Part shown: in pieces, positions 9,651 through 17,638 of the stretch
How positions within the stretch are numbered: the first letter of the stretch is position 1
Layout of the letters: each line of letters opens with the position of its first letter
Source: Halodesulfurarchaeum sp. HSR-GB
Lineage (GTDB): Archaea > Halobacteriota > Halobacteria > Halobacteriales > Halobacteriaceae
Assembly: GCF_031432215.1 (NCBI RefSeq)
Contig: NZ_JAVKGN010000001.1
Span: 1,789,421-1,853,420 of the forward strand
DNA length: 64,000 nt
Reading direction: 5' to 3'
Translations under genes and position numbers: made by a program
Notes under the pieces: generated by a model
Database searches by the model: none
What the model saw: the letters and a program-made list of their open reading frames with translations, nothing else
What the model was told of the DNA's origin: nothing

Positions 9651-10733
9651 CTAGATGACGCCCATTTCGTCGAGCCGTTCGGGCAGGTAGGTGTCGGTCA
9701 CGAAGTCGAGTCCCCGCGAGGCCAGGGCCTGCTGTTCGGCCTTCTTCTCGATGTCGAGTTGGAGTTCGATCTGCTCGGTCCAGAAATCGGTACTAAAGCG
9801 GGGGTCCTCCAGTTCGCTCTCCAGGGCGTTCACGTCCGAATCCGAGAGCGGGTCGGTCGGCAGGTCGTACTCCACGATATCGACCGGGCGGATGCCCACG
9901 AAGTCGGCCTGTGGCGTCGCGAGGTACTCCGAGAGATGCGCACTCTTGATGGAGCCGTAGGCCACCGACCCGTAGATCCGGTAGGACCACGGGTCACCGT
10001 CAGTGAAGACCGTGACCGGGAGGTCGAGGTCGTCGTGCAACCGTTTGGTGATCCGGCGGGTCGCCCGGGCTGGCTGGCCCTTGAGGTGGACGATGATGGC
10101 GTTGTACTCGTCATCAAAGCCGTTCTCGATCAGGCGGTCCCGCATCCCGCCGGTCTCCACGGCCATCACGAAGTCCGCGTCGTTGTCCAAGAACTCGATG
10201 GTGTCGGGGTTGTTCGGAATCTGATAGCCCCCTTCGCCGACGTCCTCCTGGCAGTGGATCTCACGGTCGCCACGGCGAGTCTGCTCACGGAGCCGGAGCG
10301 GGCCCATCAGGGTCGCTCCCGATTCCTCGGGGCGCATGTGGAAGTCCTCACGTTTCACGCCGGAGACGATCTCCAGGTCCTCGACCAGGGAGTTCGACTG
10401 GTCCTGTGAGTTGAACTGGGCCTCCTCCTCGTCCCAGGACTCGCTGAGGTAGTACAGTTCCCGCAGGGTCGAGGAGCGGTCCTCGTCGAGCTGGTTGGCG
10501 AGGAACTCGATGGTGTAAACCGCCTTGAGGAGCTTCCGTGCCCCGCGGACCGAGTTCGCGCTTCGTGAACTGCTGCGGTCGCCGTAGACCCACACGCCGG
10601 CATCTTCGTCGAAGATGATGTTTGACTTCGACCGGGTCGGCACGTCCATGTGGGGGATTTCGCCCAGTTCGAACTGGTCGTAGAACTGTGCCGCCAGGTC
10701 GATCAACTTCTCGCGGGCCGCTGTCTCACTCAT
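9651..10733 (-). CDS. top6A: DNA topoisomerase VI subunit A
   Basis: 360 aa. This is the DNA-cleaving subunit related to Spo11. The catalytic tyrosine is expected to be Y95, the second Tyr in RELYYLSE. The Toprim domain shows [12 protein letters not shown] (Glu) and VTFTDGDPW-type acidic residues ([10 protein letters not shown]) for magnesium. It overlaps the end of top6B by 4 bp, so the two subunits are made together. The A2B2 enzyme relaxes and decatenates DNA using ATP. Confidence 0.97.
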
Positions 10734-13117
10734 TGTATCACCGTCAATTTGGCCTCCTCGATGCCAGACACCTGCATGTCGAATTCAGCATCGGCTTCGA
10801 TCTCGTATTTCAGGGTCGCTTCGCCGCCGCTCTCGACCGCCGGCTTCCAGGTCAGATAGTACTCGCCGTCCATCTCGACCACCTCACCGGCACTGAGGTT
10901 CTGCGGTTCGCCGGTGACGATCTCGGTGACCTCGAGGTCCGCGGTGGCCGAGTCGTGGTTCTCGACCTGGAGTCGGACCACGTTGCCCTCCCGCTCGCGC
11001 TCGACGAGGACGTTGTTCATGATCCGGGCCAGCGAGTCCGAGACGTCGACCGGCTCGCGCTGGGTGATCGTCGAGACCTTCGCGGCCATCGTGGGGAGGA
11101 TGTCCGCGATAACGTTCTGTTTCTGCCGGCGTTTTCGCATCGACTTTCGCCTGTTGAGATGGGATTTGAGATCCCGGGCGGCCTCCCGAAGGGCCAACTC
11201 GAGTTCGTCCTCGATCTCCGGGACGTTCGCCACGGCGTCCTTGGACTCGCTCGTGAACGGCACGTTCGTGGACGCGACGTGAATCATGATGACGACCGGC
11301 CCCTTGGGGATTCCCGATCCCCCCGGCTGGTCGAGCCCGTAATTGCGCCAGTTGATTCCCTTCACGACGTCGGTCATCGCACAGGCCCCGCGCTGGTAGA
11401 CCAGCGGCACCCGGTTCGCAAACCGCATGAGTTCGGCCGTCTCGCCACCGTCTTCGATATCACCGCCGTAGGCGATCCCGGCCTCGGCGATGAAGGGATC
11501 GCCACCGTGGACCCCCGCATCCCGGGTCGCGGCGGTGTAGAAGTCGGCGTCGAACTCGCTTCGGAGTCCGGCCTCGATCTGGTCTTCCGTGATCGGCGAG
11601 AGACAGTCCGAGGGCGGGGCCATCACGTCGACCGAGCCCATCCCGTCGAGCAGGTTGCTGGCGGCATCCCGATCGTCGGCGAGTGTCCCGGGCGAGGGCA
11701 ACTCCTCGTCCACGGGGGCCATCCCGTCCCAGAGCGCCACGAGAATGTTCTCGCGGGCCGTCTCACCGAAGGTTTCGTCGTCCATCTCCTCGGTGAGATC
11801 CGCGGCGCGGTCGATAGCCGACCGCAACGCGGCCTGGGTGAACCGGTCCCGATCAGCGTCGGCGATCTGGCTCGCGAGACGCTCTGCCAGCGCGTCGATT
11901 GCGGCATCGTCCTTCCGGGTCGTGGTCACCTCGTCGATCGTGCGATAGAGCGCGCCGCGGCGATCGTTGGTGAGTGCCGTCCAGGCCGCTTTTTCGACGT
12001 TCGTCCGAACCGTCTCCCCGAAAGCCCGCCCCGACTCCGCGGCCAGGTCGTCGGCGACCTGATCGACGATTTCGGCGAGTTCGGTCCGGCTCACGGGTCG
12101 GTGCTCCTCGATGGCCCCCGCGAGCTGATCGCCGAATCGCCGTTCGAGGTCCTGGCCCTTGTTCGAGATGGCGTCGACGACAGCCCGGGCCAGGTTGCGG
12201 TCCTCGTGATCCTGTGGCGGGTGCCAGCGGAACTCGCGACCGAACTCCCGGTCACTGAACGCGGCGATGATCGAGTCGGCGGTCTTCTGGCCGACCCGGG
12301 TGAACGCCGTCTGGAGGAAGCCCCGAATCGTCCGGGAGTCGGTACTGTCGAGCATCTTGAGCAGCGTCCCGATCTCGACGCCGTGGGGGTGGGGCCGGAT
12401 CTCCTCGGTTTCGGCCGGCAGGGACGCCCCCTCGGCTCGCTCGGACTTGATGTGGGCATTCGGCTCCCGGAGTTCGATGCGGGCGTGGGGGTTGACGACC
12501 GCAGTGTGGCGGATGTAATCGTGAAGCTGAGAGCGGGCCCGCATGTTCGCCTCCATGTCGAGTTCGATGCGGGTGCCGTGACTGCGATCCCAGGTCGTGG
12601 TGGTCTCGGTCCGGATCTCGGGTTCGTTGCTGTCGGTGTCGATAACCAGCTCGAAGTAGTGGGCCTCATCCTGGCTGGAGGTTCGGCTCGTGACCTTCGC
12701 CGGTTTCCCGGAAGTCAACTGAGAGTACAGTACAGCCGCTGAAATTCCGATTCCTTGCTGGCCCCGACTCTGCTCACGCTTGTGAAACCGGGAGCCATAG
12801 AGCAGTTTGCCGAAGACCTTGGGCAGTTCTTCGGCCGTGATGCCCGGGCCGTTGTCCTCGATGATCAGTCGGTAGTGGTCGTCGACCTCCCGGATTTCGA
12901 CGTAGATGTCCGGGAGATAGCCCGCCTCCTCGGCGGCGTCAAGCGAGTTGTCGACCCCCTCTTTGACGGCGGTCACCAGCGCCCGGGCTTCGCTGTCGAA
13001 GCCCAGCATGTGCTTGTTCTTCTCGAAGAACTCGGCGATCGAGATCGACCGCTGGTCGGCCGCCAGGTCATCGGCGATCGCGCCCCCTCCGGATGGTGTC
13101 GAATCGAAAGCCGTCAT
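10730..13117 (-). CDS. top6B: DNA topoisomerase VI subunit B
   Basis: 795 aa, longer than many archaeal Top6B, as expected in haloarchaea, which carry an acidic insert in the middle. GHKL ATPase motifs: [19 protein letters not shown] (N box, N57), IIEDNGPGI (G1) and [16 protein letters not shown] (G2/ATP lid). The H2TH and transducer regions follow. It is transcribed away from gyrB across a 139-bp gap, so both ATP-driven type II topoisomerase systems have promoters in one intergenic region. Confidence 0.97.
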
Positions 13118-13195
13118 TCGCTTGTTTGGGGTTCCGCGCCCCCACTCAAAAACGTCCCGATACGGGGGACCCGAAAGCGGTAGCCGTGGTGCTTC

Positions 13196-13213
13196 TACGC
13201 GCGCACGCGCATG
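13196..13213. promoter_or_regulatory. 18-bp alternating pyrimidine-purine tract upstream of gyrB
   Basis: Every base step from 13196 to 13213 alternates pyrimidine and purine, mostly CG/CA steps, the sequence type that most readily adopts left-handed Z-DNA under negative supercoiling. It ends 5 bp before the gyrB TATA box. A similar though shorter tract (RY box) is known at the supercoiling-sensitive bop promoter of Halobacterium. Confidence 0.6.
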
Positions 13214-13218
13214 AGGAG

Positions 13219-13227
13219 CTTTTTAAG
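13219..13227 (+). promoter_or_regulatory. TATA box of the gyrBA operon
   Basis: CTTTTTAAG is centred about 34 bp before the gyrB ATG at 13257, giving a leader of only a few bases. Confidence 0.65.
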
Positions 13228-13256
13228 TTAGCACCGACTACCTGGCAGTAGCATTC

Positions 13257-15176
13257 ATGGTAGCGGAATCAAACTACGGAGCCGGGCAGATCCAGGTCCT
13301 CGAGGGGCTCGAGGCCGTCCGCAAGCGACCCGCGATGTACATCGGGTCGACCGACGGTCGCGGGCTCCACCATCTCGTCTACGAGGTCGTGGACAACGCC
13401 ATCGACGAGGCGCTGGCCGGACACTGTTCGCACATCGAGGTCGAGTTACACGACGACGGTTCTGTCAGCGTGCGGGACGACGGCCGGGGCATCCCGGTCG
13501 ACACCCACGAGGAGTACGACCGCCCCGCGGTGGAGGTAATTCTGACGGTGCTGCACGCAGGCGGCAAGTTCGACAAAGAGTCCTACCAGGTCTCCGGCGG
13601 GCTGCACGGCGTCGGCGTGTCGGTCGTCAACGCTCTCTCGGAGTGGCTCACCGTCGAAGTCGACCGGAACGGAAAGCGGTACGAACAGCGCTTCGAGCGA
13701 GGTGAACCCGTCACGGAACTGGAGACGGTCACTGATGTTCCCGAGGACCAGACCGGGACCCGGATCCAGTTCAAACCCGACACGGACATCTTCGAAGTGG
13801 AGAAATTTAGCTTCTCCACGCTTGAATCCCGACTCCGAGAGCTTGCCTTCCTGAACTCCGGTGTCCGGATCTCCCTGATCGACGACCGGGATCCCGACGC
13901 CGACACCGCGACCTTCGAGTACGAGGGCGGCATCAGGGAGTTCGTCGAGTACCTCAACGAGACGAGGACGCCGCTTCACGGGGACGTGATCTATCTGGAG
14001 GACGAGTCCGCGGGCGTCCAGGTCGAAATCGCGATGCAGGCCACCGAGGATCTCCAGTCCTCGACACATGCGTTTGCCAACAATATCAACACCCGCGAGG
14101 GTGGCACCCACCTCACGGGATTCAAGACGGCACTCACCAGGGTCGTGAACGGCTACGCGAAAGACCACGATCTCCTGAAGGCGATCGACGGCGAGAACCT
14201 CAAGGGCGAGGACATCCGGGAGGGCCTGACCGCGGTCATCTCGGTGAAACACCCCGACCCACAGTTCGAGGGTCAGACCAAGACCAAACTGGGCAACAGC
14301 GACGTGCGGGGCGTCGTCGAGTCGGCCCTCCACGACGGACTCAACACCTACTTCGAGGAGCACCCGGACACGGCCGAGGCGATCATCTCGAAGGCCATCG
14401 AAGCGGCGAAAGCCCGGAAAGCCGCCCAGAAGGCCGAAGAGCTGACCCGGCGGAAGAGCGCCCTGGAGAGTACCTCACTCCCTGGCAAACTCGCCGACTG
14501 TCAGACCAAAGAGCCCGAGGACTCGGAGCTTTTCATCGTGGAGGGGGACAGCGCTGGGGGATCGACAAAGCAGGCCCGAGACCGGAAGTTCCAGGCGGTA
14601 CTGCCGATTCGCGGGAAGATCCTCAACGTCGAGAAACACCGCCTCGATCGGATCCTGGAGAACGAGGAGATCCGGGCGATGATCCGGGCGATCGGGACCG
14701 GCATCGGCGAGGAGTTCGACATCGATGAGCTTCGGTACGGCCGCGTGATCCTCGCCACGGACGCCGACGTGGACGGAGCCCACATCAGAACGCTCCTCCT
14801 GACCTTTTTCTACCGGCACATGCGCCCGCTCCTCGAAAACGGCCACGTCTATGCCATCAAGCCGCCGCTCTATCGGATCCGGTATCGCGGGGAGACTTAC
14901 GACGCCATGACCGAGGCCGACCGCGAGCGGATCGTCGAGGAAGAGTGCAACGGAAATCCGACCCAGATCCAGCGGTTCAAGGGTCTGGGCGAGATGAACC
15001 CCGAACAGCTCTGGGAGTCGGCGATGAACCCGGAGAACCGGATTCTCAAGCGGATCACCATCGAGGACGCCGCCGAGGCCGACCGGATGTTCTCGGTGCT
15101 GATGGGCGATGCGGTGGGGCCGCGAAAACAGTTCATCAAGGAACACGCCACGGACGCCGAATGGGTTGATATCTGA
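13257..15176 (+). CDS. gyrB: DNA gyrase subunit B
   Basis: 639 aa, the short bacterial-type GyrB found in haloarchaea. ATPase motifs: [15 protein letters not shown] (N box), [11 protein letters not shown] (G1) and [15 protein letters not shown] (G2). The TOPRIM region has [17 protein letters not shown] and [14 protein letters not shown], and [14 protein letters not shown] is near the end. The N-terminus is the standard [18 protein letters not shown]. The stop TGA overlaps the gyrA ATG by one base. Gyrase introduces negative supercoils; haloarchaea acquired it from bacteria. Confidence 0.98.
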
Positions 15177-17638
15177 TGAGTTCGGAACTGCCAACGCCGG
15201 CCGGGCAGGTCGGCGACGAGATCGAGACCGTGCGGGTCGAAGACGAGATGGAACAGTCCTACATCGATTACGCGATGAGCGTGATCGCCGGGCGCGCGCT
15301 CCCGGACGTGCGGGACGGTCTGAAGCCGGTCCACCGCCGGATCCTCTATGCCATGCACGAGGCCGGCATCACGAGTAACTCCGGCCACCGGAAGTCCTCC
15401 TCGATCGTCGGGGACACGATGGGGAACTTCCACCCCCACGGCGACAGCGCCATCTACGACACGCTCGTGCGAATGGCTCAGGACTTCTCGATGCGCCACC
15501 CGCTGGTCGACGGGCAGGGGAACTTCGGCTCGGTCGACGGCGATCCGGCAGCGGCCATGCGGTACACAGAGAGCCGGATGGCTCCCATCGCCGAGGAACT
15601 GCTTGAGGACATCGAGAAGGACACTGTCGACTTCGAGCCCAACTACGACGACCGCCTGGAGGAGCCCGCCGTTCTCCCCGCTGCCGTCCCGAACCTGCTC
15701 GTCAACGGCTCCTCGGGCATCGCCGTCGGGATGAGCACGAACGTGCCGCCGCACAATCTGAGCGAGGTCATCGACGCGGCGGTCCACCTGCTCGAAAACC
15801 CGGATGCGACGGTCACGGACCTGATGGAGTTCGTTCCGGGCCCGGACTTCCCGACCGGGGCTACCATCGTGGGCAAGAACGCGATCAAGCAGGCCTACGA
15901 GACGGGCCGCGGTCGACTCAGGGTCCGGGCGAACTACGAGATCGAAGAGCGATCAAAGGGCGATCGGATCATCCTCACGGCACTCCCCTACCAGCAGAAC
16001 AAATCAAAGCTGGTCGAGCGGATCGCGGACATGGTCAACGACGGTGACCTGGAGGGCGTGCGAGACCTCCGGGACGAGTCCGACCGCGACGGGATCCGTG
16101 TGGTCATCGAGTTGAAGCGGGGCGCGAACACCGACATCGTCGAGAACCGCCTGCTGGAGAGCGTGCTCGAACGGACCTTCGGCGTCATCAACCTCGCGCT
16201 GGTCGATGGCAACCCCGAGGTACTCACGCTGAAGGAGATGCTCGATCACTACCTCGATCACCGTCGGGAGGTCGTCCGCCGGCGCTCGGAACACGACCTC
16301 GCGGAGGCCGAGGACCGGGCCCACATTCTGGAAGGCCGGCTTCTCGCCCTGGAGCACGCCGAGGACGTGGTCGAGTTGATCCGGAACTCCGCGGACCGGG
16401 ACGCCGCCAAAGCCGCACTGCAGGAGGAGTATGACTTCTCGCAGGCCCAGGCCCAGCACGTCGTGCGTATGCAACTCGGGAGCCTGACCTCCCTTGAGCG
16501 CAGCGAGATCGAGTCGGAGTACGAGGACGTCAAAGCCCGGATCGAGCGGCTCCAGACGATTCTGGAGGACGAATCGGAACTCCGCGAGGTCATCAAATCC
16601 GAACTTCAGGCCCAGAAGGAGACCTACGGCGACGAGCGGCGCACTTCGATCATCGAGGCCGACGGCGAGGTGACCGACGAGGATCTGATCCCCCAGGAGG
16701 ACGTGCTCATCACGCTCTCCGAGGAGGATTACATCAAGCGGGTCCCGATGGACGAGTTCTCGGCCCAGCACCGGGGTGGGAAGGGGATCATCGGAGCCGA
16801 CCTCAAAGAAGGGGATCAGGTCGCGACCGCCTTCCCCGCCCGCACCCACGACACCCTGCTCTGTTTCACCGACGCGGGTCAGGTCTATCGACTCAAGGCC
16901 TATCAGGTGCCGGAGATGTCCCGGACCGCCCGGGGCACCTCGGCGATCAACCTGCTCGAACTCGACGGGGACGAGGACATCACCGCCGTCGTGGCAACCC
17001 GGGACATCGACGAGGACCAGTATCTCACGATGGTCACCCGGGACGGGTACGTCAAACGGACACCCGTCGAGGACTTCGAGAACATCCTCTCGACTGGCAT
17101 CATCGCCACGCGACTCGAAGACGGCGACGAACTGGTGGACGTGGTGATCACCGACGACGAGTCACAGATCGTCATCGGCACGCGAGGGGGCCGAGCAATC
17201 CGCTTCGCGGAGACCGACGTTCGAGCGATGGGGCGAACCGCCCGAGGGGTTCGGGGCATCACCCTCGAGCCGGGAGACGCCGTGGCTGGCGTGACTGCAG
17301 TCCAACCTGACGACGACCGATACCTGCTCACCGTCACCGAGAACGGGTACGGTAAGCGCACCCGACTCTCGGAGTACCGGGCCCAGTCCCGGAACGGAAA
17401 GGGTCTCATGGACATCAAGACCGGCGACCGCAACGGCCCCGTGGCGACCCTGCGGACGGTTTCGGAGGGCGATCACGTCATCGCCATGAGCGAGGCCGGC
17501 CAGATCACCCGGATGCCCGTCGAAGAGATCTCCGCGATCGGGCGCAACACCAAAGGCGTCCTCGTCATGCGAGTCGAACGGACGGACCGCCTGGCCGGCG
17601 TCAGCATCTTCCGCCCGATGACGGAGACCGAAGCGTAA
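15176..17638 (+). CDS. gyrA: DNA gyrase subunit A
   Basis: 820 aa. The winged-helix breakage region has [33 protein letters not shown] and the catalytic tyrosine Y130 in [11 protein letters not shown]. The C-terminal beta-pinwheel, which wraps DNA, begins after about residue 500. It carries the GyrA box as QHRGGKG near residues 531-537, the motif that separates gyrase from topoisomerase IV. Start overlaps the gyrB stop by one base. Confidence 0.98.

Follow-up and report, generated by a model that had tools for sequence, protein, structure and literature searches.

In Halobacterium, the bop promoter carries an RY box, reportedly about 11 bp long and placed close to the TATA box or downstream of it, and Yang, Kim, Molinari and DasSarma are said to have proposed in 1996 that this box adopts a non-B structure under negative supercoiling and is stimulatory. 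In the same year, Kim and DasSarma reportedly observed that short CG tracts form Z-DNA in halobacterial plasmids, where they are stabilised by length and supercoiling. In bacteria, the gyrA and gyrB genes of E. coli and mycobacteria show relaxation-stimulated transcription, the feedback being built into the promoter (Menzel and Gellert; PMC4770202). In the archaea, papers on gyrase (PMC9348778 and PMC8643681 among them) state that its regulation is little understood, and the only data they cite on it, from novobiocin, are indirect. Novobiocin induces a plasmid-borne halophile gyrB up to 20-fold (PMC9348778, PMC8643681) and raises the gyrase genes in Halobacterium (PMC3184054), where induction of topA and topoisomerase VI by the drug has also been published. 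A conserved, gene-specific, Z-prone element at a gyrase gene would represent the cis-acting half of the loop by which archaea sense and hold their supercoiling.

In this work, we have analysed the gyrB promoter of Halodesulfurarchaeum sp. HSR-GB within a window of 64,000 nucleotides (the whole stretch of DNA under study), together with the gyrB promoters of its relatives. The literature that was searched, an open set without the 1991 gyrB paper by Holmes and Dyall-Smith, contains no mention of the tract described here.

Results

The locus comprises the following features:

10730 to 13117, minus strand: top6B, topoisomerase VI subunit B, the divergent neighbour (open reading frame of the window; annotation of L301)
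13196 to 13213, plus strand: alternating pyrimidine-purine, Z-prone tract TACGCGCGCACGCGCATG (best Z segment 13198 to 13213)
13214 to 13219, plus strand: spacer or BRE slot, AGGAGC (read directly from the sequence)
13220 to 13227, plus strand: gyrB TATA box TTTTTAAG (TTTAT/TTTTTA conserved at the matching place in relatives)
13238 to 13240, plus strand: predicted -10 promoter element, CTA (CTA recurs there in relatives; 'WW' element of PMC4983044)
13257 to 15176, plus strand: gyrB, DNA gyrase subunit B, 639 aa (open reading frame of the window; relatives)
15176 to 17638, plus strand: gyrA, DNA gyrase subunit A, overlapping the gyrB stop (gyrA lies directly 3' of gyrB in L301)

The top6B ATG (13117, minus strand) and the gyrB ATG (13257, plus strand) are separated by a gap of 139 bp, and the same head-to-head arrangement of top6B and gyrB-gyrA is present in other haloarchaea, such as Natronorubrum bangense (L301). 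The gyrB transcript would start near 13250, about 7 nt 5' of the ATG. As the sequence-only reading had claimed, an unbroken 18-bp pyrimidine-purine alternation, built from TA, CG, CA and TG steps with CG predominant, precedes the gyrB TATA box; its distance from that box, given there as 5 bp, is 6 bp if the T-run is taken to begin with its first T. The haloarchaeal promoter consensus consists of a BRE (CGAAA), a TATA box (TTWT) and a -10 WW element (PMC4983044). In the gyrB promoter the canonical CGAAA is missing: the BRE slot reads CGNGR in most relatives and AGGAG in this genome, so that the tract extends into the TFB site.

Both the bop RY box and the gyrB tract are alternating purine-pyrimidine tracts within haloarchaeal promoters, and to this extent the analogy with bop made in the earlier reading holds. 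In sign the two would differ, since non-B DNA and supercoiling stimulate bop and gyrase homeostasis needs the opposite. The gyrB tract also differs in being CG-rich, in its order-wide conservation, in its position upstream of BRE and TATA (the bop box reportedly lies at or downstream of TATA) and in that, as we propose, it should repress when supercoiled. The Z-DNA sites attributed to Kim and DasSarma came from a survey of the Halobacterium genome, whereas the gyrB tract belongs to the promoter of one gene and is conserved there. The bacterial gyrase promoters resemble that of haloarchaeal gyrB in that the gyrase genes are induced on loss of negative supercoiling, but they sense it in and around the -10 region and, unlike haloarchaeal gyrB, without a conserved Z-prone tract.

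TACGCGCGCACGCGCATG is the sole alternating run of at least 13 bp in the window, and one of only three (YR)x9 sites in the 2.25-Mb genome; no alternating run of 17 or more was found in 400 kb of haloarchaeal background from 20 genomes. Being a pyrimidine-purine run rich in CG and CA, with a low predicted B-Z transition energy, it has the sequence character of Z-DNA. We calculated Z thresholds with a simple two-state model of a 5-kb domain, which takes its B-Z energies from Table 1 of PMC3024258 and counts one Z run at once. In this model the tract ranks first in the window for predicted Z formation, with a threshold of sigma -0.0407 against -0.0465 for the second site, values that rest on low-salt energies and that molar intracellular KCl may shift. 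Within the 5-kb domain the modelled probability of the Z form is 0.006 at sigma -0.030, 0.45 at -0.038 and 0.96 at -0.045, and other sites compete little with the predicted switch.

The gyrB genes of the order, with their upstream regions oriented, yielded 153 distinct promoters, which represent 62 genera and 16 families. In 148 of them an alternating tract rich in CG and CA lies at the matching place, ending about 42 bp 5' of the ATG. Alternating runs of at least 10 occur in 144/153 gyrB promoters versus 2.1% of random 48-mers, runs of at least 14 in 86/153 versus 0.085%, and runs of at least 16 in 56/153 versus 0.015%. The predicted threshold has a median of sigma -0.0417 in these promoters (10th to 90th percentile, -0.0438 to -0.0394), and a median of -0.0548, with a best value of -0.0450, in 460 random haloarchaeal 90-mers. 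The unbroken tract is not universal, as the best Z segment is interrupted in 37 of 58 genera, often by a single break in the upstream half; broken tracts are longer than unbroken ones (20 versus 16 bp), so that their thresholds are similar. The tract was absent from five haloarchaeal gyrB promoters: L250, L253 (f10), L255 (f12), L256 and L257 (f2). Families f2, f10 and f12 are low in GC, with a local GC of 0.38-0.58 in the five sequences; in the tract-bearing promoters local GC spans 0.50-0.71 and is uncorrelated with the threshold. The tract-less promoters of these families are useful natural controls.

The earlier reading had given weight to the gap shared with topoisomerase VI. Such sharing does occur here, but it is unneeded, because the tract stays beside gyrB where top6B sits elsewhere in the genome. 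In Natrinema thermotolerans, for instance, gyrB lies downstream of psmAB rather than beside top6B and keeps its tract (threshold -0.0432). The record that carries these gyrBA and psmAB genes, CP031304.1 (L302), is named 'plasmid unnamed6' of strain A29 and is 987 kb long; its gene content makes it probable that the record is a piece of a chromosome or a chromid.

The element is also specific for gyrB. A scan of 195 genomes for the pattern of motif plus TATA, CGCGYRYRCGNGN{1,4}TTTAW, gave 128 matches in 124 of them, compared with about 9 over the same genomes for a reversed-pattern control; in genomes with a known gyrB promoter, gyrB accounts for 85 of 90 matches. An operator with a regulon would place one motif before several genes, and since this combination of motif and TATA hardly occurs outside gyrB, a regulon-wide operator was rejected. 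Among 81 TATA-type promoters, which a simple rule picked out of 464 kb, gyrB alone exceeds sigma -0.045. Haloarchaeal topA promoters have no such tract and show an ordinary CGAAA-TTTA pattern (the topA threshold in this genome is -0.0601); as the tract, moreover, follows gyrB rather than top6B, a common topoisomerase signal was rejected. Nor is the tract a property of every gyrB, since no alternating run of at least 14 was found in 71 non-haloarchaeal gyrB upstream regions, from bacteria and other archaea.

Two matches outside gyrB, in L267 and L275 (each at about 1500), look incidental; the one in L275 lies 54 bp 5' of a 165-aa open reading frame of unknown function. Plasmid NZ_CP129994.1 of Salinibaculum sp. 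KK48 (L303, 3001-4986) carries a divergent orphan gyrB (68% identity), which is unaccompanied by gyrA, lacks the Z-prone tract and is flanked by dcd and a sensor histidine kinase.

What is kept within the tract was examined by aligning the element on its core, which gives roughly C-n-C-g-C-n-C-g-CGCGYRYRCG-N-G-R followed by TATA. The alternation holds in 97-100% of genera at core columns 2-7, although at columns 4-7 either base of a class occurs. In the upstream half the pyrimidine columns are in phase in 86-96% of genera and the purine columns in 62-83%. Between independent nearest pairs, divergence is 7.4% in the tract versus 50% in the upstream flank. Transitions and C<->G changes stand at 29:2 in the core, 42:16 in the upstream half and 332:239 in the flank, an excess of transitions relative to the flank with Fisher p = 4e-5 for the core and 0.036 for the upstream half, both approximate because promoter rows share phylogeny. 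Changes in the tract are thus mostly transitions, which preserve the alternation, and it is alternation, not GC content, that is favoured. When all transversions are counted, within genera, the upstream half (20:34) does not differ significantly from the flank (231:460). These data bear out the expectation of the earlier reading that the alternation would be kept in relatives while the bases vary.

At the positions that differ, none of 300 draws of random alternative bases held the Z threshold as well as the real bases did, and no such effect was seen in a control stretch just 5' of the tract. When halves were exchanged between genera, the thresholds became more scattered, but so, to an equal degree, did GC content and duplex stability; this shows that the tract is kept as a unit and is no proof of Z-DNA, and we have dropped it as an argument for a tuned threshold. 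A cruciform was also considered and rejected, since short palindromes are present in some tracts (CGCACGCGTGCG in genus g4) and absent from most.

Discussion

Our results show a conserved element at a fixed place in almost all haloarchaeal gyrB promoters, and we consider it fairly probable that this cis-element has been selected to flip to Z-DNA and thereby to repress gyrB at high negative supercoiling. The sign is dictated by the induction of gyrB by novobiocin, which requires repression under high negative supercoiling. We propose that the tract would leave the B-form once negative supercoiling reaches a set level. When supercoiling is high, the tract would become left-handed, and the B-Z junction beside BRE and TATA would impede the docking of TFB and TBP, keeping gyrB low; alternatively, the Z tract could soak up the torsion required for promoter opening. 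When supercoiling drops, for example under novobiocin, the tract would return to B-DNA, TFB and TBP would bind, and gyrBA would be transcribed. The published induction of haloarchaeal gyrB, which comes from other species, fits this kind of homeostatic control and might be explained by the proposed switch. The sequence-only reading of the tract as a supercoiling sensor is therefore partly supported by our analysis.

A stronger form of the proposal is that gyrase synthesis is under a protein-free supercoiling switch: a tract tuned by selection to flip near sigma -0.04 and abutting BRE and TATA would shut gyrB off once the chromosome is sufficiently supercoiled, and changes in sequence and length that offset each other would preserve it throughout the order. 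We put this forward tentatively, and lean slightly against it. Two features run counter to the Z-DNA reading: Z-DNA would not demand the degree of base specificity seen in the 3' core CGCGYRYRCG, and the purine columns of the upstream half fall out of phase in 17-38% of genera. The Z-tract model also leaves the novobiocin induction of topA and topoisomerase VI unexplained, as topA promoters lack the tract.

The main rival to the Z-DNA reading is a dedicated DNA-binding protein, a gyrB regulator that reads CGCGYRYRCG beside the BRE, the alternation being a by-product of a CG-rich, self-complementary site. The very strong conservation of the 10-bp core (CG at columns 2-3 in 97-100% of genera, G at column 11 in 94%), its self-complementarity as CGYRYRCG and its position next to the TATA box are what an operator would show, and protein control of gyrase would likewise yield novobiocin induction. 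Against this, the motif has just one target per genome, so that the supposed regulator would serve a single gene, and the four central positions take either pyrimidine or either purine but almost never the other class. In addition, alternation and threshold are kept in sequence-divergent lineages (f11, CACGCGCACGCGCACGCG; f13, ACGCGCGTGCACGCGCACGC; and f3), and the spacing between tract and TATA differs in parity among promoters. We therefore regard a dedicated regulator as unlikely, though deserving serious attention.

Less probable still, and in our opinion rather improbable, is a structural element that acts in the B-form, either a flexible or stiff run of CG steps or an extended BRE recognised by a specific TFB, setting basal strength with no sensing of supercoiling. 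Such an element would suit a tract that adjoins a BRE slot reading CGNGR rather than CGAAA, and whose GC content and duplex stability are likewise uniform. It accords poorly with the preference for alternation over GC-keeping changes, with the other haloarchaeal promoters, topA included, that manage without a tract, and with the reaction of gyrB to gyrase inhibition (PMC9348778). Chance or the base composition of GC-rich genomes can be set aside with near certainty on the random, promoter and GC controls: CG steps are abundant in haloarchaeal DNA (rho 1.26), but runs of 14 are at least 100-fold rarer in controls, divergence is 7% in the tract against 50% in the flank, and the range of local GC among tract-bearing promoters brings no correlation with threshold (r = 0.08).

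If the tract does act through Z-DNA, it would be a rare example of selection on a non-B DNA structure that can be read from comparative sequence, and the proposed switch could be tested directly in haloarchaea that are amenable to genetics.

A second conserved box, GTGAAAGTGAAA (TTTCACTTTCAC on the opposite strand), lies within 500 bp 5' of gyrB in 29 of the 153 regions, from 7 families (L084, L087-L092, L106, L110, L135, L143, L169, L177, L204, L229 and L244 among them). Its counterpart in the window is a degenerate CCGAAAGCGG at about 13168-13180. Where top6B adjoins gyrB, the box lies upstream of the top6B start, and it is possibly a top6B operator.
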